From positions 1-28,352 of IMG/VR virus record IMGVR_UViG_3300009149_000208: a stretch of DNA of 28,352 nucleotides. One strand, 5' to 3'. The position numbers and the translations under genes were made by a program. This document shows, in pieces, positions 431 to 27,047 of the stretch. The notes under the pieces were generated by a model. The model was not told where the DNA came from. It saw only the letters and a program-made list of their open reading frames with translations, and searched no databases. The stretch comes from a virus. Position 1 is the first letter of the stretch; each line of letters begins with the position of its first letter.

Positions 431-789
431 AGGTTTATATTGCCTGTCCTTACACTAAGGGCGATATAGCTCAGAATGTCCACAATGCTATTAAAGTTGC
501 CGATATGATAGCTGAGATGGGGCATATCCCTTATGTCCCCGTTCTGGCGCATTTCTGGCACTTGGTTTCACCGCATCCTTGGGAATTCTGGATGAAGATA
601 GACGAGGAATTTCTGAAAGTATGCGATTGTGTGTTTAGAATGGACGGTGAATCTACTGGAGCGGACAGGGAAGTGGAATTGGCACGGTTATCCAGCAAGC
701 CCATTTTCTACAACTTAGGGGATTTAGAAGACATAGACAAATTCATACCCAAAGTCAGGGCTAAATTCAGTATTTCAGGTGAACTATGA
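427..789 (+). CDS. DUF4406-like / nucleoside 2-deoxyribosyltransferase-fold protein
   Basis: A 120-residue protein beginning MKVYIACPYT, followed by an N...A...A..M...GH.P..P...H repeat of helix and strand and a late GESTGADREVELA motif. The PY start strand plus S-x-GA-x-x-E near the C-terminus are typical of small phage proteins related to nucleoside 2-deoxyribosyltransferases (DUF4406 group), which act on or bind nucleotides. The GTG at 427 is used, with AGGAG at 413-417 nine bases upstream. It overlaps the preceding and following genes by four bases (GTGA and ATGA junctions). Substrate and activity are not deducible. Confidence 0.75.
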   Translation: MKVYIACPYTKGDIAQNVHNAIKVADMIAEMGHIPYVPVLAHFWHLVSPHPWEFWMKIDEEFLKVCDCVFRMDGESTGADREVELARLSSKPIFYNLGDLEDIDKFIPKVRAKFSISGEL

Positions 790-1331
790 AAAGAGACCTA
801 GCAAATAGACGCTTTGGAAGGCTTACGGTAATCCGCCAAGCATCCATCGACCGTTTTGGTCATAGGAAATGGCTTTGTCAGTGCGATTGTGGGAATACAA
901 AGGTGGTTAGGGCTCAGTCCCTACTCAGTGGGCATACTAAAAGCTGCGGTTGTCTTAATAGAGAAGAAGCAGCAAAGCGTCTCATGGGACACGGCTTACA
1001 CACAAAGCACGGCTTGCGATACACTCGTCTTTATAGAATTTGGGCAGATATGAAAGCTCGTTGTTATAACCCCAATTCTACCGTTTATCGTTACTATATG
1101 GAACGTGGTATAAAAATATGTTCCGAGTGGTTGCACGACTTCCTTGCTTTTTATAGGTGGGCAATGGCTAATGGTTATGAGCCGAATTTATCAATAGACC
1201 GTATCAACAACAATGGCGGCTATGAGCCAAGCAATTGTCGCTGGGCAACCTCTGCTATGCAAGCCACCAATAGAAAATTCAGTATTAAACAACGGCTTGA
1301 TAATTTACCTGAAATAAGGAGGGCGAGATGA
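786..1331 (+). CDS. zinc-ribbon plus HNH/AP2-like homing-endonuclease-type protein
   Basis: A 181-residue protein. Residues 8-57 have the GRLTVI...W.CQCDCGN...V....L.SGHTKSCGC arrangement, a four-cysteine zinc ribbon with a G-x-T-x-SCGC ending. Residues 80-165 have LYRIW..MK.RCYNPN...YRYY..RGI.IC..W and then LSIDRINNNGGYEPSNCRWAT..MQATNRK. The IDR-x-NN-G-x-YEPSNCRWAT block is common in phage proteins annotated as HNH- or AP2-type DNA-binding/homing nucleases. The start ATG overlaps the previous stop (ATGA) and has AGGTGA upstream. Whether it still cuts DNA cannot be judged. It is co-directional with its neighbours, unlike the leftward HNH genes further on. Confidence 0.7.
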   Translation: MKRDLANRRFGRLTVIRQASIDRFGHRKWLCQCDCGNTKVVRAQSLLSGHTKSCGCLNREEAAKRLMGHGLHTKHGLRYTRLYRIWADMKARCYNPNSTVYRYYMERGIKICSEWLHDFLAFYRWAMANGYEPNLSIDRINNNGGYEPSNCRWATSAMQATNRKFSIKQRLDNLPEIRRAR

Positions 1332-6599: not shown

Positions 6600-7205
6600 C
6601 TATACCAAATTTGGCTGGATGGGGATTTTGTTGTAGGTGAGCAAGGGGTGGCAATGGTTACAGGCACACGCCAGATTTGTGGATTTGTTAGCCTCTTCTG
6701 CCGATGCAAATTCTCTAAATGCTATAATATGATGAACGGGAATATTCTTTCGTTTTCTTCTGCAAATTCTACAGCGGTAGCCATCCCTAATTCTAATTTG
6801 CTCTGCGATTTTCTTCCAATTCCTACCTCTATAAGTAAGTTCACCTCCGATGTAATAGGGACTATTATTGCCACTGGCAAACTCTTTATTCCAAAGACGA
6901 TAACAGGCAAGACTACAAAAGCTATGGTTGTTTTGTTTGGCGTATTTACGCCTATTAAGTTCAAAGGGTTTCTGCTTGAATTCTTCACCGCAATAATCGC
7001 ATTTAAGAACAACTGGCTCTTTCCAGTTATGGCTATCCCTGCCTCTGTAATGGGGCAAACTTTGAGGGTTTCCCTTGCCCGCTGGCGGGAAGCCTTGATG
7101 TTCATACCGCCATTTAGCCATACAAGAACGGCTACAAAAACGACCCAATTGGTTATTCCTAGCCTTAAAGGTTTTCCCACAATATTCACAAACTCTATTT
7201 ACCAT
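6600..7205 (-). CDS. leftward HNH homing endonuclease with zinc fingers
   Basis: A 201-residue protein. Two N-terminal zinc-finger-like units (CEYCGKTFKA...FCSRSCMAKW and CDYCGEEF...FCSLACYRLW) are followed by W..IAEQIRIRDGYRCRICRRK...VHHIIAFREF...NLACACNHCH, a complete HNH motif (HH, N, H). This is the architecture of free-standing phage homing nucleases. It runs against the operon between two methyltransferase genes. Its own promoter overlaps the start of the next gene and places the transcript start almost at the ATG, with no SD (see promoter entry). Downstream, at 6573, the plus strand carries MEIKFKRDT, resembling the MELKFKVDT start of the methyltransferase. Confidence 0.85.
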   Translation of the reverse strand: MVNRVCEYCGKTFKARNNQLGRFCSRSCMAKWRYEHQGFPPAGKGNPQSLPHYRGRDSHNWKEPVVLKCDYCGEEFKQKPFELNRRKYAKQNNHSFCSLACYRLWNKEFASGNNSPYYIGGELTYRGRNWKKIAEQIRIRDGYRCRICRRKRKNIPVHHIIAFREFASAEEANKSTNLACACNHCHPLLTYNKIPIQPNLV

Positions 7206-8929: not shown

Positions 8930-9415
8930 ATGCTTGATTACTGGTTTGATTATGGAACATTCGGCTTCACCTCCAAACAAAATATATGGGCTATTCAAAA
9001 TTTAGAGTTCTTTGAAAGAGGAGAATGGCCGCCGTTAATTGGTGATGAACGGGGAGAGTATTTAACTGACGAATGCAACAATGGGAAGTGGATTGAAGTT
9101 GTCCGTCAAGTGGGGACGTACACTGAGATACCCATTAGAAAGCGTATGGTCAACGCTGAGGCGTATTTCGTCAAGCCTTGTATAATTACAGCTGAGATAA
9201 AGACAAGACTCAAATCTACTAAAAAAGATGGTGAAACCTTAATCTGGGAAGTCCAGCACGGATTAACAGATATTGAACTATTGAGTCCATCAGCCAGGAG
9301 TGCCTTATTTTACATCTCCGGAATAAAGCGCCGGGGCGATTCATACCCAAAGTGGCTTGCTGACAGGAAATACCGGATAAAGCACGATAAAAACGCCGTC
9401 ATTGCTCACGCCTGA
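8930..9415 (+). CDS. hypothetical protein
   Basis: A 161-residue protein. N-terminus MLDYWFDYGTFGFTSKQNIWAIQNLEFF; the middle is beta-rich (AYFVKPCIITAEIKTRLKS...TLIWEVQHGLTDIELL); the end is basic (KRRGDSYPKWLADRKYRIKHDKNA). I do not recognise the family and see no nuclease or transposase signature. The ATG directly follows the previous TAA, with AGGA nine to ten bases upstream. It is the last protein gene before the structured RNA. Confidence 0.6.
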   Translation: MLDYWFDYGTFGFTSKQNIWAIQNLEFFERGEWPPLIGDERGEYLTDECNNGKWIEVVRQVGTYTEIPIRKRMVNAEAYFVKPCIITAEIKTRLKSTKKDGETLIWEVQHGLTDIELLSPSARSALFYISGIKRRGDSYPKWLADRKYRIKHDKNAVIAHA

Positions 9416-9427
9416 TTAGCTTTAGTA

Positions 9428-9456
9428 TTGACAAAGTTTTAAGAAAAGATTATGAT
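9428..9456 (+). promoter_or_regulatory. strong sigma-70-like promoter for the structured RNA
   Basis: TTGACA (9428-9433), exactly 17 bases, TATGAT (9451-9456): perfect -35 and five of six -10 bases, in an AT-rich leader. No protein frame of note follows; the structured RNA starts about 7 bases downstream. Confidence 0.75.
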
Positions 9457-9462
9457 AAGATT

Positions 9463-9615
9463 ACCAAAAGGTGTAAATGCCAGCTACTCGAAAGGGCGAC
9501 CAGTGAAACTGTGTCTATACCGTCTCGTAAGGTGACACGATGTCGGTAGCCGTAAGCTACGAGAAACTGGTTACTAGCTGGTAAAGAGAAAGCCCGTCGT
9601 TTAGGCGAGCTCTCT
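9463..9615 (+). ncRNA. candidate structured small RNA, about 150 nt, family unknown
   Basis: Nested complementary arms are visible: CCAGCTA (9480-9486) with TAGCTGG (9575-9581); ACCAGT (9499-9504) with ACTGGT (9566-9571); inside these TACCG (9518-9522) with CGGTA (9544-9548) closing TCGT/ACGA (9525-9528/9537-9540); and GTAGC (9546-9550) with GCTAC (9556-9560). A 3' hairpin GCCCGTC-GTTTA-GGCGAGC (9592-9610) is flanked by AGAGA/TCTCT. A GGGC (9494-9497) could form a pseudoknot with GCCC (9592-9595). A near-consensus promoter sits just upstream. The 3' hairpin resembles both IS605/TnpB right ends and the phage's own terminator at 16900; no TnpB or IscB gene is near. Read on the minus strand the same hairpin is followed by TTTCTCTTT and may also end the leftward operon. 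Confidence 0.6.
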
Positions 9616-9628
9616 TAATTAGAGGGGG

Positions 9629-9892
9629 TTATTTAGCTTTGGAGAGGGCATCCTGAATATGGATATGGATGCTATGCAGTTGCGGGTCATCGCTAACATC
9701 GGGATTATCAAGAAGCCAGCGGTCAATTTCTAGCAATGCCTCGTGTTGGTTAGGAGCTGCGGAGATAAGGCGGGCATTGGCTCCTCTCATAATGAAATGC
9801 AATGGTGTTTGGTATGGGCATTCAGCAACAATTAGGTCGCCAGCCCATACTTCATAATCTTTTGCCATCCATTCTCCTTTAGTATATTCCAT
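9629..9892 (-). CDS. conserved small phage protein (NARLIxAAP type)
   Basis: An 87-residue protein: MEYTKGEW..KDYEVWAGDLIVAECP...ANARLISAAPNQHEALLEID. The combination YTKGEW ... ANARLI-[AS]-AAP-x-x-x-EALL is frequent in small phage and prophage proteins of unknown function. SD GGAGG is encoded inside the upstream overlapping gene. Third gene of a leftward three-gene operon. Confidence 0.75.
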   Translation of the reverse strand: MEYTKGEWMAKDYEVWAGDLIVAECPYQTPLHFIMRGANARLISAAPNQHEALLEIDRWLLDNPDVSDDPQLHSIHIHIQDALSKAK

Positions 9893-10025
9893 CTCTACAC
9901 CTCCTTCGTTCTTTATTCCAGTAGGGACTTTGGCATTTTGGACATCTAACAGGTTCTTCTTCGGACTTGGGGAACCAAATATGCCCGCATCTCAAACAGG
10001 TAAGTTTAGTTAGTTTTATTTTCAT
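9879..10025 (-). CDS. 48-residue rubredoxin-like zinc-ribbon protein
   Basis: Read leftward from ATG 10025 (AGGAG SD just upstream) to TAA 9881-9879: MKIKLTKLTCLRCGHIW then P...EPVRCPKCQSPYWN. The two C-x2-C pairs, the H-x-W after the first and the S-x-x-W after the second are characteristic of small stand-alone zinc ribbons. It overlaps the next leftward gene by 14 bases and supplies that gene's SD. It is shorter than most ORF cut-offs, but motif, SD and coupling make it convincing. Confidence 0.75.
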   Translation of the reverse strand: MKIKLTKLTCLRCGHIWFPKSEEEPVRCPKCQSPYWNKERRRCRDGIY

Positions 10026-10087
10026 TGTTTAACTCCTTTTATTTATCTCCTATGGTGCTTATTCCTTAACCTCTTAATAGAGCCTTA

Positions 10088-10315
10088 TCAGTAGGGGAGA
10101 TACCTAGTAGCTATTCTCCACTTATCGTTCTTGTTGCACTTAGGACAAACTTCCGGTATATCCTTGCCACCTTCATTGACATAATGCCTTTTACAGAAGC
10201 CACAATACATAGTAACATCGGCTACAGTGCCATCTCGGTTGTAGGTAATATCCCTTACGGCAGTTCGCTTTGCTCGCTTGGTAGTTAATCCCAAACTACT
10301 AAATATGTTAGCCAT
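10088..10315 (-). CDS. small zinc-ribbon protein, first gene of the leftward operon
   Basis: A 75-residue protein from ATG 10315; GGAGG six bases upstream decides this start over an in-frame TTG at 10321. The C-terminal half has YCGFCKRHY...EVCPKCNKNDKWRI, two C-x2-C pairs of a zinc ribbon; the N-terminus (SSLGLTTKRAKR) is basic. It may bind nucleic acid. Driven by the promoter at 10367-10339. Confidence 0.7.
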   Translation of the reverse strand: MANIFSSLGLTTKRAKRTAVRDITYNRDGTVADVTMYCGFCKRHYVNEGGKDIPEVCPKCNKNDKWRIATRYLPY

Positions 10316-10338
10316 CTTCAACCTCCCTATTTACCTAC

Positions 10339-10829: not shown

Positions 10830-11384
10830 ATGAATAATAGATTAACACAAAAAGAAGAGACCTTTGCTCTTCTCGTATTCTCTGGTGTAATTCAAAGAGA
10901 GGCATGGGGGCAGGCCGGCTATTCCACAAAATATTCCATTGAACACATAGACCACAATGCCTCTGTTTTGGCTAACTCAAACAAGGTTCAAACAAGACTA
11001 AAAGAACTCCGCCAGGCAGCAGAGGATACTACTGTTGCTACTGTTCTTGAGAGGAAACAAAGATTATCTGAGGTTGTCAGAGCCAATGTACCTGACTTTG
11101 TAGCCGACGGTGCCATAGCCGTAGAGAAACAATCGCCTAACGTTGGGGCAGTTTCCGAGATCACCACTAGAACAAGGGTCTTCCGTAAAGGTGGGGAGCC
11201 AGTTAATATCACTAACTTGAAATTACATTCCCCCATTCAAGCCATAGCTGAACTCAACAAGATGGAACGGGTGTATGAGCCTGACGGTGGGACGACCATT
11301 AACAATCAGATAGTGAATATAATCGTAATGAGCGAAGAAGATAAAAAGAACATTGAGCGGGTAATGGAAGGGGAGGGGACTTAA
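10830..11384 (+). CDS. terS: terminase small subunit
   Basis: A 184-residue protein: LTQKEETFALLVFSGVIQREAWGQAGYS (helix-turn-helix, DNA recognition), then a helical NASVLANSNKVQTRLKELRQAAEDTTVATVLERKQRLSEVVRA block typical of Terminase_2-type small subunits, and a C-terminal beta/helix end. It recognises the packaging site and recruits the large subunit. Its stop overlaps the next ATG by one base. Its place one gene before the large subunit supports the call. Confidence 0.85.
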   Translation: MNNRLTQKEETFALLVFSGVIQREAWGQAGYSTKYSIEHIDHNASVLANSNKVQTRLKELRQAAEDTTVATVLERKQRLSEVVRANVPDFVADGAIAVEKQSPNVGAVSEITTRTRVFRKGGEPVNITNLKLHSPIQAIAELNKMERVYEPDGGTTINNQIVNIIVMSEEDKKNIERVMEGEGT

Positions 11385-11716
11385 TGGCACTCAGGGGTAC
11401 GGCGAAGACAGACTACCAACGAGAGTATATGCGTATGAGGCGCGGGTCTAACGCTTTTGTTAGACCCCCTGTTAGACCCCCTGTTAGACCCCCTGTTAGA
11501 CCCATTGATAATCTGCGCCAGGTGATAAAGAGTATAGAGAACAAGGACAAAGCCCATCAGTGTCCACCTGGTGAAGTCTCATTGCCTCTGTATGACCCAG
11601 CCATACACAGACCTGGCGACAAGGTGATGGTGAAGCCGGTGTATGGGAAGAAGCTGATGCCTGTTGTGCTGCCTGAGCTGGATGCCGGTGGACAGCCGAT
11701 ACCCAATTATGATTGA
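11384..11716 (+). CDS. small protein with VRPP tandem repeats between terminase genes
   Basis: A 110-residue protein: MALRGTAKTDYQREYMRMRRGSN is followed by VRPPVRPPVRPPVRP encoded by a 12-base tandem repeat and then a mixed C-terminal part. Phage proteins starting with a (K)TDYQREYMR-x-RR block and carrying Val-Arg-Pro repeats are found next to terminases and are of unknown role. The repeat makes a rigid, basic polyproline-like segment. Overlaps terS by one base. Confidence 0.7.
   Translation: MALRGTAKTDYQREYMRMRRGSNAFVRPPVRPPVRPPVRPIDNLRQVIKSIENKDKAHQCPPGEVSLPLYDPAIHRPGDKVMVKPVYGKKLMPVVLPELDAGGQPIPNYD
11444..11503 (+). repeat. 12-bp tandem repeat with a perfect 9-bp inverted arm
   Basis: GTTAGACCCCCT occurs three times (11459-11470, 11471-11482, 11483-11494) plus GTTAGACCC (11495-11503). 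Immediately upstream GGGTCTAAC (11444-11452) is the exact reverse complement of GTTAGACCC, with loop GCTTTT, so a hairpin can form with any of the four arms. Confidence 0.9.
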
Positions 11717-11824: not shown

Positions 11825-13021
11825 ATGTCTATTAGAGATGTTAAATATACTCATATCTTTGGGCTTAACAATGAAGCATGGCTAGGTGGTAAAAGAAGAG
11901 CATTAAACGAAGGGGGGACTTACTCGAGTAAGACGTGGTCAATCCTTCAGCTCCTGGTGTGGATAGCTCGATATGCCAAGCACCCTCTCATTATTTCAGT
12001 GGTTAGTGAATCACTGCCTCATCTTAAACGGGGAGCGATTAGAGACTTCTTCAAGATACTAAATGAAAGCCCGGACAATAACCCTCGATACAACAAGACT
12101 GAGCATATTTATTCGGTTGGCAATGGGGCGATTGAGTTCTTCGGGGCGGATGAAGCCGACAAGGTGCGGGGGCCAAGAAGGGATTTACTCTTCATCAATG
12201 AGGGGAATAACGTACCATGGGAGACGGCCCGGGGTCTGGATATAAGAACTGCTAAATTCACCTTTGTTGACTGGAATCCCGTCTCTGAATTCTGGGCACA
12301 CGAATACTGGATAAAGCAACCCGAAAACGCTTATATTCACTCGACTTATTTAGATGCTGTTGGAGTTCTACCGGCTGAAGTTATAGCGAATATAGAATCT
12401 AACAAGAACGACCCCAACTGGTGGAACATCTATGGATTGGGCAAATTAGGCAAAGTAGAAGGCTTAGTTTATCCCTTCTTCGGGCAGGTTGATACAGTAC
12501 CATCAGGTAACGAGTTTTACGGGCTAGATTTTGGCTACAGCAACGACCCAACGGTCTTGGTGAAGTGTTCTCTAAGAGATGGGCTTTACTGTCAGGAACT
12601 GATTTATGAGAAAGGTCTGACCAATGATATGATAGCCCGCCGGATGGAAGAGCTCGGAGTAAAGAGAAATTATGATGAGATATATGCCGATTCTTCCGAG
12701 CCGAAATCTATAGAGGAGATTTACAGATATGGCTTTAATATCAAGGGATGCCCGAAAGGGCCGGGTAGCGTGGAATACGGGCACCAGAAGGTAAGACAGT
12801 TTAGGCAGTTCTGGACCCAAGATTCCTTGAGTTGTATTAAGGAGCAGAGAAACTTCAGATACATAGAAGATAAGAACGGCAAGCTTACCGACAAGACAAC
12901 CCACGCTTTCAGTCACGGTATGGATGCCAGGAGATACGGGGTTATGGGGCGATTTGAACCACAGGAAGAAGAAAAAATAGTTATTTATGATGCTATGAGT
13001 GAGGTCAATTTAGACTTATGA
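11825..13021 (+). CDS. terL: terminase large subunit (ATPase/nuclease)
   Basis: A 398-residue protein. Walker A is LNEGGTYSSKT at residues 28-37, followed by an adenine-binding-type helix; Walker B is RRDLLFINEGN around 117-127 with the catalytic glutamate; the coupling segment is FTFVDWNPVSEFW. The nuclease domain has GLDFGYSNDPT, YADSSEPKSI and HGMDARRYG, the acidic residues of the RNase H-like fold. It packages DNA into proheads and cuts concatemers. ATG 11825 has no SD, although TATAGT lies four bases upstream; translation may be coupled. Confidence 0.95.
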   Translation: MSIRDVKYTHIFGLNNEAWLGGKRRALNEGGTYSSKTWSILQLLVWIARYAKHPLIISVVSESLPHLKRGAIRDFFKILNESPDNNPRYNKTEHIYSVGNGAIEFFGADEADKVRGPRRDLLFINEGNNVPWETARGLDIRTAKFTFVDWNPVSEFWAHEYWIKQPENAYIHSTYLDAVGVLPAEVIANIESNKNDPNWWNIYGLGKLGKVEGLVYPFFGQVDTVPSGNEFYGLDFGYSNDPTVLVKCSLRDGLYCQELIYEKGLTNDMIARRMEELGVKRNYDEIYADSSEPKSIEEIYRYGFNIKGCPKGPGSVEYGHQKVRQFRQFWTQDSLSCIKEQRNFRYIEDKNGKLTDKTTHAFSHGMDARRYGVMGRFEPQEEEKIVIYDAMSEVNLDL

Positions 13022-14950: not shown

Positions 14951-15165
14951 AATGTCTTAAATGTGCAGGTAAAGGATTTATCGAACTTGAACACGGTCTT
15001 ATAACGGTGGAGTGTGCTGACTGTTGTGGAACAGGAGAAATACTAGATGTCATTAATAGCGGAACTGGACAGCCTGATAAATCTATTAGAAGCAAAAATA
15101 CCAGCAAACCCAAACAGTCCCGTAAACCAAAGATTAGAAAAGGGACTGCAAAAAGAGCTGACTAA
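14947..15165 (+). CDS. DnaJ-type zinc-knuckle protein with basic tail
   Basis: A 72-residue protein: MKCLKCAGKGFIELEHG...CADCCGTGEI, a pair of C-x2-C-x-G-x-G-like knuckles, followed by a Lys/Ser-rich tail (SKPKQSRKPKIRKGTAKRAD). AGGAG is seven bases upstream of ATG 14947. Its tail overlaps the first 119 bases of the MuF gene in another frame, so the true C-terminus could be functional or just permitted. Confidence 0.55.
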   Translation: MKCLKCAGKGFIELEHGLITVECADCCGTGEILDVINSGTGQPDKSIRSKNTSKPKQSRKPKIRKGTAKRAD

Positions 15166-16618
15166 ATATTTCAAAGCTCTTGAAGATGCCTTTCCCTACA
15201 GTGAAGTGGAAAGGCTTTATTATGCCTATGTGAAAGAGAGTCTGGGGGCTGAAACGGGGAATACTCTAGACCCATTATTAGCCACTTTTAGAACTACTTT
15301 ATTTCAACAGCTCAATAATCAGTTATTGGCAGTTTATCTTTCGGGGTCAGCCGAGATGGTAACTTGGGGTAAGACTAAGGCTGGTATCCCAATAGCTTAT
15401 GAGGGGCCGCCGATTGAGCAGGCTATAACCTGGGCGGATAAATACTGTGCTAAATTAGTAACTCAGATGGATGAGGAAACCAAACGGCGACTGGCAAAGG
15501 TTGTCAGTGATGGCATTAAGAATAAACGAGGTGTCCCCGGACTGTCTAGGGACATTAAGAAGCAATTTACTAATATGAGCAGGTATCGCAGCCAGATGAT
15601 AGCCCGGACAGAAACGGCAAATACCTTATCACAGGCAAGCCTTGATAATATGATGGATATGGGGATAGAGGGCAAGGAATGGGTTACTGGCGGTGAACCC
15701 TGCGAGATATGTGAGGGGAATGAGGCTGAAGGAGTTATCTCTGTAAATCAAGCCTTCTCTAGTGGACATATGAACCCACCAGCTCACCCAAACGCAGTAT
15801 TTGAGGGTTATGGATTCTTTCCATATGGCTCACTTCAGCAAATGCTTCGTTCTCGATATGACGGCCCCTCGATTTCGATTGAGGCTGAGCGATTTGACGA
15901 TAGATTCCAACTGGCGTCTGGGAATTCCGCATATATGTCCGATATCTCTCATAGAGACATTCTGAGAGAAAAGGAACTTGCATCTTTCAATTTGACTGCT
16001 GGAAATAGGAGTAGGGGCTTTATTACTATATTTCCTCAAAGGATACAACTCACCATTGGGCCTAATCACCCTGTGTTGACCAGACGTGGTTTTGTTGATG
16101 CACAATTCCTCAATGAAGGCGATGAGTTGCTTTATGACATTAGGAGTGAATTCACGGCAAGTGGTATTACCCCTGATTTCGAGCAAGTTCATTCTGTCGA
16201 GGGTGTATTTAAGTCTATAAGGTCTCTCGCGGACCACATAGGAATTCCCGCTGCCAAAAACTATTTCCACGGCGACGAGTCCTTCTGCTATGGTGAAATC
16301 CAAGTTGTAAGGCCCCAAGGGAACCTGTTGCCTATAAAGAATTCTGGCATCATCGAGCATTTGAGCAAATGCAACCTCACGGAAGCCTATGCCGATACTG
16401 AGCATGTGGCGAGTTGTGGTTCTTGCCAATTTCGTTTCAATAGTATCTTTCATTCCCCTCCGTGCTATATGTGCTGCTTCCGTATTAACTCTATTCATAA
16501 AACCTCCTTCAGTGGGTGGGCCTTCGATGCCTCTACCTCAACTGAATTATACAATATAGGCGGTGTGGTGGTCAAGAACTGTGTCTGTGCCTTAGCCCCC
16601 GCTAGATTAAATAAATAA
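15047..16618 (+). CDS. MuF-type minor head protein interrupted by an intein (Hint) domain
   Basis: A 523-codon frame. Residues 1-249 and 512-523 are a phage Mu gpF-like head morphogenesis protein: helical N-terminus, RSQMIARTETANTLSQASLDNM, EWVTGGEPCEICEGNEAEG (C219, C222), then PPAHPN. The normal MuF ending HPN-CxC is split: HPN (247-249) is followed by 262 foreign residues, then CVCALAPARLNK (512-523). The insert has Hint features, described in the intein entry. Splicing would give a 261-residue protein with HPNCVC restored. MuF proteins attach to the portal inside the prohead. CAGGAG is the SD for ATG 15047. An antisense gene lies within the intein part. Confidence 0.9.
   Translation: MSLIAELDSLINLLEAKIPANPNSPVNQRLEKGLQKELTKYFKALEDAFPYSEVERLYYAYVKESLGAETGNTLDPLLATFRTTLFQQLNNQLLAVYLSGSAEMVTWGKTKAGIPIAYEGPPIEQAITWADKYCAKLVTQMDEETKRRLAKVVSDGIKNKRGVPGLSRDIKKQFTNMSRYRSQMIARTETANTLSQASLDNMMDMGIEGKEWVTGGEPCEICEGNEAEGVISVNQAFSSGHMNPPAHPNAVFEGYGFFPYGSLQQMLRSRYDGPSISIEAERFDDRFQLASGNSAYMSDISHRDILREKELASFNLTAGNRSRGFITIFPQRIQLTIGPNHPVLTRRGFVDAQFLNEGDELLYDIRSEFTASGITPDFEQVHSVEGVFKSIRSLADHIGIPAAKNYFHGDESFCYGEIQVVRPQGNLLPIKNSGIIEHLSKCNLTEAYADTEHVASCGSCQFRFNSIFHSPPCYMCCFRINSIHKTSFSGWAFDASTSTELYNIGGVVVKNCVCALAPARLNK
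15830..16498 (-). CDS. antisense homing-endonuclease-like gene nested entirely inside the intein
   Basis: A 222-residue protein on the opposite strand, wholly within the intein DNA. Residues 56-110 (RQQVPLGPYNLDFTIAEG, then LVAVEI, RPYRLKYTLDRMNLLEIRG) follow the pattern of DUF559/Vsr-like PD-(D/E)XK nucleases: Asp67 in LDF, Glu78 in VEI, then a basic helix and a final L-E-I strand. Residues 139-155 (SGQHRVIRPNGE) and a helix-turn-helix-like SMRDIGHICGIPRRQLESIV (182-201) follow. AAGGAGG is four bases before ATG 16498 and TTGACC-18-TATAAT lies just upstream. Its codons are in register with the sense codons. Catalysis is inferred; the third residue of the ExK motif is not obvious. Confidence 0.8.
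   Translation of the reverse strand: MNRVNTEAAHIARRGMKDTIETKLARTTTRHMLSIGIGFREVAFAQMLDDARILYRQQVPLGPYNLDFTIAEGLVAVEIVFGSGNSYVVRERPYRLKYTLDRMNLLEIRGNTTCREFTPNVIKQLIAFIEELCINKTTSGQHRVIRPNGELYPLRKYSNKAPTPISSSQIERCKFLFSQNVSMRDIGHICGIPRRQLESIVKSLSLNRNRGAVISRTKHLLK
16503..16509 (-). promoter_or_regulatory. perfect SD of the antisense nuclease gene
   Basis: AAGGAGG on the minus strand (16509-16503), four bases before ATG 16498. On the plus strand the same bases are intein codons (Thr-Ser-Phe region just before FSGW), so a consensus SD is maintained inside a conserved protein block. Confidence 0.8.
16546..16575 (-). promoter_or_regulatory. antisense promoter embedded in the intein C-terminal splice block
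   Basis: Minus strand: -35 TTGACC (16575-16570), 18-base spacer, -10 TATAAT (16551-16546, perfect). Predicted transcript start near 16539, giving a leader of about 40 bases with the SD. On the sense strand these bases encode ELYNIGGVVVKN; the -35 box covers the VVK codons next to the splice junction. Confidence 0.65.
16592..16618 (+). repeat. direct repeat of the MuF gene 3' end (second copy 16853-16879)
   Basis: The last 27 bases of MuF (encoding LAPARLNK-stop) recur at 16853-16879 with 22 of 27 identical by my alignment; the second copy reads IAPTRLKR-stop. The gene 16633-16836 lies between the copies. Confidence 0.6.
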
Positions 16619-24166: not shown

Positions 24167-24529
24167 ATGGCTTACACGACATTACCGGTATTGGATGCAG
24201 TCAAGGCGGGGACAGAAATTGACGGTCTGGAAGTTGGGGCAAACACTCAAGGTGGAAACGGATTTGAATTCGCCAATGATGGGAAAACCATACTAAAGGT
24301 CATTGAGGGCACTGGCGTTGCCGAAGGAATCACCTTTGAAGCTATCCTGGATAGATTTGGGAGAGCAGAAGATGTTTTGACCAGAGTGGTTACAGCGAGC
24401 AAGAGCTTTATTTATGGACCGTTTATGCCCGAAATCTGGAACATAAACGGCAAGCTCAGGTTCAAGTTTACCGGGGCTGCTGGTGCAGCAACCACTTGTA
24501 TGGCGATAAGAGTATCGCATCCAACATAA
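24167..24529 (+). CDS. small structural protein, tandem paralogue 1
   Basis: A 120-residue protein with GNGFEFANDGKTILKV, EAILDRFGRAEDVLTRVV, and FIYGPFMPEIWNINGKLRFKFTG. It is clearly paralogous to the next gene in all three blocks. AGGAGGTAAATT is the SD. Found between tail completion and tail tube genes, so probably a virion protein, but the role is unknown. Confidence 0.65.
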   Translation: MAYTTLPVLDAVKAGTEIDGLEVGANTQGGNGFEFANDGKTILKVIEGTGVAEGITFEAILDRFGRAEDVLTRVVTASKSFIYGPFMPEIWNINGKLRFKFTGAAGAATTCMAIRVSHPT

Positions 24530-24549: not shown

Positions 24550-24918
24550 ATGGCTTATGTAACTTTAACTGTATTAGGGGCGGACAAACTGGGGGACGAG
24601 TTAATAGCTTTAATGGTAGGTGCAGATGACCAGGGGGCTGGCGATGGATTTGAGTTTTTGAACGATGGCTCCACCGTCTTACTGGTATTAGACCAACTCG
24701 CTCTTGGGGCTGGGGACGATTTTACCCTTGAGGCTGTCTTAGACCAGTATGGAAGGGCCGAGGATGTGTTACTGCGCACTATTAATGCGAAAAAGATATA
24801 CATTTACGGACCGTTCCTACCGGAGATTTGGAACATTGATGGTAAAATCAGGTTCAAGTTCACTACACACGATATCAAAACTCAATTGATAGCAATTAGC
24901 GTAAAGAACCCGACTTAA
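24550..24918 (+). CDS. small structural protein, tandem paralogue 2
   Basis: A 122-residue protein sharing blocks GDGFEFLNDGSTVLLV, EAVLDQYGRAEDVLLRTI and IYIYGPFLPEIWNIDGKIRFKFT with the preceding gene. The two have diverged strongly at the DNA level and most in their N-terminal thirds and last 20 residues. GGGAGGTAATTTAG is the SD. Confidence 0.65.
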   Translation: MAYVTLTVLGADKLGDELIALMVGADDQGAGDGFEFLNDGSTVLLVLDQLALGAGDDFTLEAVLDQYGRAEDVLLRTINAKKIYIYGPFLPEIWNIDGKIRFKFTTHDIKTQLIAISVKNPT

Positions 24919-26324: not shown

Positions 26325-27047
26325 TTAGGGGAGGTTCATTTTAGTGGCATCTAATAGCGATTGTTCTAATTCCATTACCCTGTTTTCAAGAACTTTAATT
26401 CGTTTTGCTTTTTCGGCTAAAACTTGGGAATGGGCACGAGATGGCATACCTACTAGGTTTTCAGGGCGGTTATCATTTTTAATGCCATTAAGATGGTGGA
26501 CTGTCCAGCCTTCAGGGAGGGGTATTTTATGAGCATCTTCCCAAACAAGAATATGTTCAAAAATATAGCCATTTACTCCACTGCGATGGTGGTCAGGCTT
26601 ATAAACTCGTACATAACCTGTCCGTGTTTCATATGTTCTGTAGCCATTATAGCGAGGATGCATATCACCAGTCTTATATCCCATTTGAGGATATTTGTGA
26701 TACGCCAATTTGATAGCTTCACCAGAAGTCCTCAGTTTGAGGCCATTGTCATCAAAGAGTCGTTTCAGAGTGTAAAAAGATATGCTCAATTGTTGACAAA
26801 CTTCTCCAAAGGAAAGTTCCTTATCGTAGTAAAGTTCCTTAGCTTTTGGGAGCATAACTATAATCCTATTATCCTGACCTTTACGATAAACCTCTGGAGT
26901 TTTTGGCGGGATACCATAAAGACGCATATTTCTGCGAATGGTATCCTTGCACACTCCGAGCCTGTCAGCAACTTCACGCAGTTTAAGATTCTCAGTGTGG
27001 TAAAGGTGGTTCAGCGTATTTTTATCTATAGGGATTGGTTTTGGCAT
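26325..27047 (-). CDS. leftward HNH homing endonuclease with helix-turn-helix domains
   Basis: A 240-residue protein. The N-terminal 110 residues contain two HTH-like units (LKLREVADRLGVCKDTIRRNM and LSFGEVCQQLSISFYTLKRLF). Residues 120-215 hold the HNH_3-type nuclease: YVRVYKPDHHR, NGYIFEHILVWED, WTVHHLNGIKNDNRPENLVGM, with a coiled-coil end (EKAKRIKVLENRVMELEQSLL). SD AAGGAGGT and a near-consensus promoter drive it. It sits opposite to the operon, right before the tape measure start. Confidence 0.88.
   Translation of the reverse strand: MPKPIPIDKNTLNHLYHTENLKLREVADRLGVCKDTIRRNMRLYGIPPKTPEVYRKGQDNRIIVMLPKAKELYYDKELSFGEVCQQLSISFYTLKRLFDDNGLKLRTSGEAIKLAYHKYPQMGYKTGDMHPRYNGYRTYETRTGYVRVYKPDHHRSGVNGYIFEHILVWEDAHKIPLPEGWTVHHLNGIKNDNRPENLVGMPSRAHSQVLAEKAKRIKVLENRVMELEQSLLDATKMNLP

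Follow-up and report, generated by a model that had tools for sequence, protein, structure and literature searches.

The intergenic locus and its predicted transcript

The question raised by this locus is whether an intergenic stretch of an uncultivated virus encodes a structured RNA with a role of its own and, if so, of which kind. The window (the whole stretch of DNA analysed, a record of 28,352 bases) holds at 9428-9615 a region flanked on the 5' side by a plus-strand gene of unassigned family (8930-9415) and on the 3' side by a small minus-strand gene (9629-9892, phrog_1273), and the list of open reading frames contains none of at least 50 amino acids within 9416-9628. The first-pass annotation had assigned to this region a structured RNA of no recognised class, transcribed from a promoter of its own. 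The sigma-70-type promoter, TTGACA-17-TATGAT (9428-9456, plus strand), is confirmed: it agrees with the consensus at 11 of 12 positions, a match of this quality lies within 130 nucleotides upstream on the same strand for less than 1 % of positions, and the same hexamers and spacer recur at the syntenic copy of the locus in two related contigs, L094 and L118, which are identical to each other there. Judging from the position of the -10 box, transcription would begin at about 9463 with a short 5' leader (9463-9478, plus strand), and an RNA of about 155-170 nucleotides, ending at about 9616-9630, is probably made by the host sigma-70 polymerase.

The minimum free energy of 9463-9636 (174 nucleotides) is -51 kcal/mol, with a z-score of -1.3, and 23 of 200 shuffled sequences fold equally well. 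As this energy by itself is unremarkable, the question was taken to the relatives of the locus. The core at 9479-9582 has a z-score of -2.2, which is also the mean over 20 modules of the kind described below, partly because these modules were selected by their complementary ends. An unremarkable single-sequence energy would suit an ordinary short terminated transcript, composed of promoter, leader and terminator, in which the RNA itself is functionless; this reading is nevertheless very improbable, since it is contradicted by covariation, and the module is moreover conserved at non-homologous loci and detected independently by a covariance model.

Relatives of the RNA in uncultivated phages

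Using the terminase large subunit (11825-13021) as bait, 80 viral contigs were collected. One of them, L074, contains just upstream of terS an intergenic stretch of roughly 600 nucleotides with the motifs that mark the two ends of the window RNA (GCCAGCUA..CGAA..GGG and UAGCUGGU), and a stretch of 630 nucleotides there folds at a z-score of -4.4. The conserved module, termed Y, reads GCCAGCUACYCGAAAGGG...GGCUACUAGCUGGC and comprises an 8-bp outer stem (P1), a 3-bp hairpin capped by GAAA (P2), a variable interior and a conserved GGCUAC ahead of the closing strand. In the window it occupies 9479-9582 on the plus strand, as given by the covariance-model match and the family alignments.

Of 18 viral contigs recovered with a 19-base pattern, one (L095) matched by chance, and 9 further contigs came from a less strict pattern that covered the two ends of Y. 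A covariance model (CM R1) built from 13 relatives, with the window left out, returned the window module as the best match in 811 kb (35 bits, E-value 5.7e-6). These first patterns fixed parts of P1 and P2, so that sequence identity in the two helices is partly built in, and a third scan was therefore made with a pattern containing no base of Y (UUAACAAYNNAAUA followed by GCUGGUGUC). It added 12 contigs, and in five of them (L121, L126, L128, L129 and L130) Y follows directly after a second module, X, with a gap of at most 3 nucleotides and E-values between 2.8e-9 and 1.8e-5. Overall, Y is found at more than 30 places in uncultivated-phage contigs.

Narrower searches delimited the closest relatives. 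A pattern for the interior subtype of the window matched L130 only, and the true members recovered by a promoter-plus-P1 pattern were L094 and L118 only. The protein encoded at 8930-9415, used as bait among viral contigs, gave no match. Neither the window locus nor the L121 long form (see below) had similar DNA, as judged by BLASTN, among 50,697 phage records, a set that covers the cultured phages, and the same long form matched none of 72,556 plasmid records. The 19-base pattern occurs twice in the genome collection, about the number expected by chance on our own estimate. CM R1 found no match in 299 genomes of one phylum, which is weak evidence as this phylum may not be that of the hosts.

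Comparative support for the fold

Across 29 sequences the covariation score is 0.164, as against 0.080 ± 0.010 in shuffled alignments and 0.015-0.057 in slid controls, and 91 % of cells are paired compared with 85 % in the shuffles. A second set, selected by the boxA-like element plus X only, gives 0.147 against 0.085 ± 0.018. The two strands of P1, GCCAGCUA (9479-9486, plus strand) and UAGCUGGU (9575-9582, plus strand), are paired in 99.6 % of cells, with compensatory changes in L112 (UCCAGCUA/UAGCUGGA), L027 (ACCAGCUA/UAGCUGGU) and L083 (GCUAGCCA/UGGCUAGU) and, within the set collected independently of Y, in L128 (GCCAACCA/UGGUUGGC) and L126 (GCCAGCCA/UGGCUGGC). The P2 hairpin, CUC-GAAA-GGG (9487-9496, plus strand), is paired in 98.8 % of cells.

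Evidence for the interior comes mainly from the closest relative, L130, whose Y can be aligned with that of the window along its whole length. RNAalifold on the two sequences predicts 31 pairs, four of them with double compensatory changes, and the window's own fold, when compared with L130, likewise shows four double changes; in a control in which the substitutions were reassigned to randomly chosen columns having the same base, four double changes arose in 0.5 % of trials (P 0.005). These changes support an inner hairpin domain at 9505-9544 on the plus strand (UGUGUC/GACACG and ACC/GGU). The RNAalifold consensus also pairs GGUAGCCG (9545-9552) with UGGUUACU (9568-9575; family consensus GGCUACU), both on the plus strand, to form a helix, J, which competes with part of the last pair of P1. 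In the family as a whole, the five bases ahead of the closing strand fit their own interior better than swapped ones (10.57 against 9.60 ± 0.27), and none of 2000 partner swaps reached the observed value. The helix P3, which appears in the minimum-energy fold of the window (GACCAGU/ACUGGUU), fares less well: it is weaker in the partner-swap test (p 0.008), is paired in 54-65 % of cells across the family and, because it is broken in L130, is not counted as established.

On the 3' side of Y, a hairpin at 9584-9616 on the plus strand (AAGAGA..GCCCGUC GUUUA GGCGAGC..UCUCUU) has an energy of -12.5 kcal/mol, and the hairpin at the equivalent place in L094, AAAGAGCUCGGUAGAAAUAUCGGGCUUUCUU, has -13.4 kcal/mol. 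A weak terminator-like hairpin at 9608-9630 (plus strand) is an alternative for the 3' strand of the first; the two overlap and are mutually exclusive.

Covariation was thus found where the first-pass annotation had suggested looking for compensatory changes in related phages, their lack being what would speak against a structured RNA. Of the nested fold it had drawn, the outer stem (9479-9486 with 9575-9582) and the GAAA hairpin (9487-9496) are conserved, whereas the conserved portion does not include the 3' hairpin. The pseudoknot it had considered between GGGC and GCCC is rejected, as the GGG already forms the 3' strand of P2 and GCCC is not kept in L094. The fold is therefore supported by comparison of related sequences, and the initial observation is real and larger than it at first appeared.

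Stand-alone and long forms

Y without X is found in the window and in L094 and L118. The order in these relatives matches that of the window: in L094 a gene for a homologous protein (36 % identity to that of 8930-9415) is followed by TTGACA-17-TATGAT, Y, the hairpin and then terS, and in the window terS is reached after two further genes on the opposite strand (9629-10321). Y begins 22 nucleotides past the -10 box in the window and 23 in L094, so that both copies share with put RNAs a promoter-proximal position, and most copies of Y elsewhere are without a comparable promoter. A second copy of Y is present elsewhere in L094. A model for X (CM R2) found no X in the window, the record of which may be incomplete, and the window RNA is on this basis the Y-only form; Z, W and the boxA-like element described next are absent from it as well.

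Y in most phages belongs to a chain that often starts with a boxA-like element and continues with X, Y and, again often, two further modules, Z and W. X reads CUUGCUGGUGUC...CCGAGCCAGCAAG, Z reads GCCUGAGCCGAG...GGCUCAGGC, and W is a stem with one G-rich and one C-rich strand. These long forms are intergenic, lying between co-directional genes and on the strand of their neighbours as far as examined. The boxA-like UUAACAAYUNAAUA stands directly ahead of X in many members: TTTAACAA with NN[AG]A[AT] after it was counted five times in the vicinity of modules against 0.13 expected, and a related expression matched nine times in the loci collected up to that point, each time at one of these RNAs. 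In L122 the element fits GYTCTTTAANA, the gamma-proteobacterial boxA consensus (PMC5725501). Other members have the conserved part further downstream than this consensus would place it, and the identification of the element as boxA is for this reason put forward as a hypothesis.

Two members show further variation in their modules. Module X of L122 holds a tRNA-like stretch, which matches the Rfam tRNA model at 36 bits and for which ARAGORN makes no call. L128 (1208-1761) has X more than once and a tandem pair of Y modules, which suggests duplication of modules.

The position of Y ahead of genes could point to a 5'-UTR element controlling translation of the next gene, and a ribosome-binding site does lie no more than a few tens of nucleotides after Y in L085, L089, L090 and L130. 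We regard such a role as unlikely, considering that the genes downstream of Y vary from phage to phage and that in the window no gene on the same strand follows for more than 700 nucleotides.

Known RNA classes and the guide RNA reading

The description of the RNA as unassigned is borne out by the Rfam covariance search which the first-pass annotation had recommended, HEARO included. At the gathering threshold, the window and 36 related loci match no family except tRNAs, and the GOLLD and ROOL models are among those with no match. At a relaxed threshold, applied to the window RNA and the L074 and L121 stretches, matches were at chance level, again with none to GOLLD or ROOL. Among these were queA for the window RNA (14.7 bits) and a hammerhead for L121 (20.9 bits), both far under their cut-offs. 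The hammerhead match, whose cut-off is 48.5 bits, lies at 9367-9416 on the minus strand of L121, in the modules after Y, and is probably due to chance.

The first-pass annotation had also noted that the 3' hairpin resembles the right ends of IS605 elements, which would suit an orphan guide RNA of the TnpB or IscB type, and had named an anti-defence RNA as a further possibility. The conserved part of the RNA is, however, the 5' module and not this hairpin, HEARO has no match in the window RNA, and no TnpB/Cas12f1 domain (PF07282) scores above its cut-off in the window record or in 12 module-carrying phages. The TnpB guide reading was rejected on the last of these grounds, and the proposal of a guide RNA or anti-defence mimic as a whole is highly improbable; an anti-defence role through mimicry of another kind is conceivable. 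Antisense targeting within the window was likewise rejected, as no inverted repeats of at least 16 nucleotides touching the RNA were found there.

Possible function

The reading that we prefer, and to which we give about an even chance, is that Y, present in the window as a free-standing copy, acts in trans as a stable structural RNA, similar in kind to GOLLD and ROOL. The transcript would persist as a stable folded RNA and act by its shape during infection, either as RNA only or as an RNA-protein complex, and the Y-only copy would partner or compete with the long form while being dosed separately from it. This proposal is drawn from the size of the long forms, their modularity and their variable insertions, as in GOLLD and ROOL, the structures of which are known (PMC12286853). 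Like these, the RNA is phage-encoded and non-coding and combines a conserved core with variable insertions, and the tRNA-like sequence in module X of L122 recalls the tRNAs that GOLLD linkers sometimes contain (PMC12286853). It differs from them in its core sequence, in the lack of a match to any Rfam family at the gathering threshold and in the boxA-like start of the long forms. The window form differs further in that it is short, consists of a single module and has a promoter of its own.

The main alternative, which we hold to be somewhat doubtful, is a cis-acting antiterminator or late leader in the nascent RNA, modelled on the HK022 put RNA, lambda nut/boxA or the lambda 6S late leader. 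Polymerase starting at 9428 would be enabled by nascent Y to pass the hairpin or terminator into the late (terminase) genes. The order of promoter, Y, hairpin and terS in L094, which the window shares, agrees with this, as do terminators directly after Y in L086, L088 and L094 and after the L074 RNA, and, as judged by eye, after X in L122 and L123. The boxA-like element ahead of X in many members, with its fit to the consensus in L122 (PMC5725501), points in the same direction, and putL is likewise located just behind its own promoter (PMC9378689). On the other hand, the opposite-strand genes at 9629-10321 separate the window RNA from terS, a boxA-like element is missing from the window copy, most long forms lie within operons with no terminator detected after them, and four large modules far exceed the needs of put or nut. 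We favour a structural role over antitermination.

Comparison with other named systems shows similar partial likenesses. The HK022 put RNA is about 70 nucleotides long with two hairpins (PMC9378689) and shares with the window RNA a structured element close behind a phage promoter; Y, in contrast, spans about 55-190 nucleotides, has a closing stem, an inner domain and the J helix, and is mostly situated inside operons. The sequence ahead of X is similar to the rrn and lambda boxA sites (PMC5725501), unlike which the element is missing from the window copy and displaced downstream in its conserved part in most members. The STAXI motif (PMC2864571) is likewise a module with structure, which can occur in repeats and lies close to genes whose products handle DNA, but it is mainly a repeated pseudoknot, and Y has no match in Rfam.

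Taken more broadly, we tentatively propose, at a little short of even chances, that the chain of boxA-like element and X-Y-Z-W represents a new class of large modular phage RNA, widespread in uncultivated phages, with Y occurring also as a separate promoter-driven RNA upstream of terminase genes, and with a structural or transcription-controlling role unlike that of any known phage RNA. The covariation-supported family is an addition to the few large ornate phage RNAs known. Because Y is found within long forms as well as by itself after a promoter, a large RNA can here be tested in a small version, and the boxA-like start raises the question whether phages use host antitermination factors for long non-coding RNAs.

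Other features of the genome

Several further features of the window were observed. Genes for HNH-type endonucleases are located at 786-1328 (plus strand), 6600-7205 (minus strand) and 26325-27047 (minus strand). The gene at 15047-16618 (plus strand) encodes a minor head protein similar to Mu F and SPP1 gp7, with a large C-terminal insertion containing intein-like motifs. Antisense within that insertion lies an open reading frame of 222 amino acids (15830-16498, minus strand), which matches nothing in Pfam, NCBIfam or PDB; it has a nuclease-like reading and is possibly a nested homing nuclease. Tandem repeats of 12 nucleotides (TGTTAGACCCCC) at 11458-11505 give rise to a repeated RPPV in the open reading frame at 11384-11716, and the adjacent genes at 24167-24529 and 24550-24918, whose DNA is 73 % identical over 82 nucleotides, appear to be duplicated.
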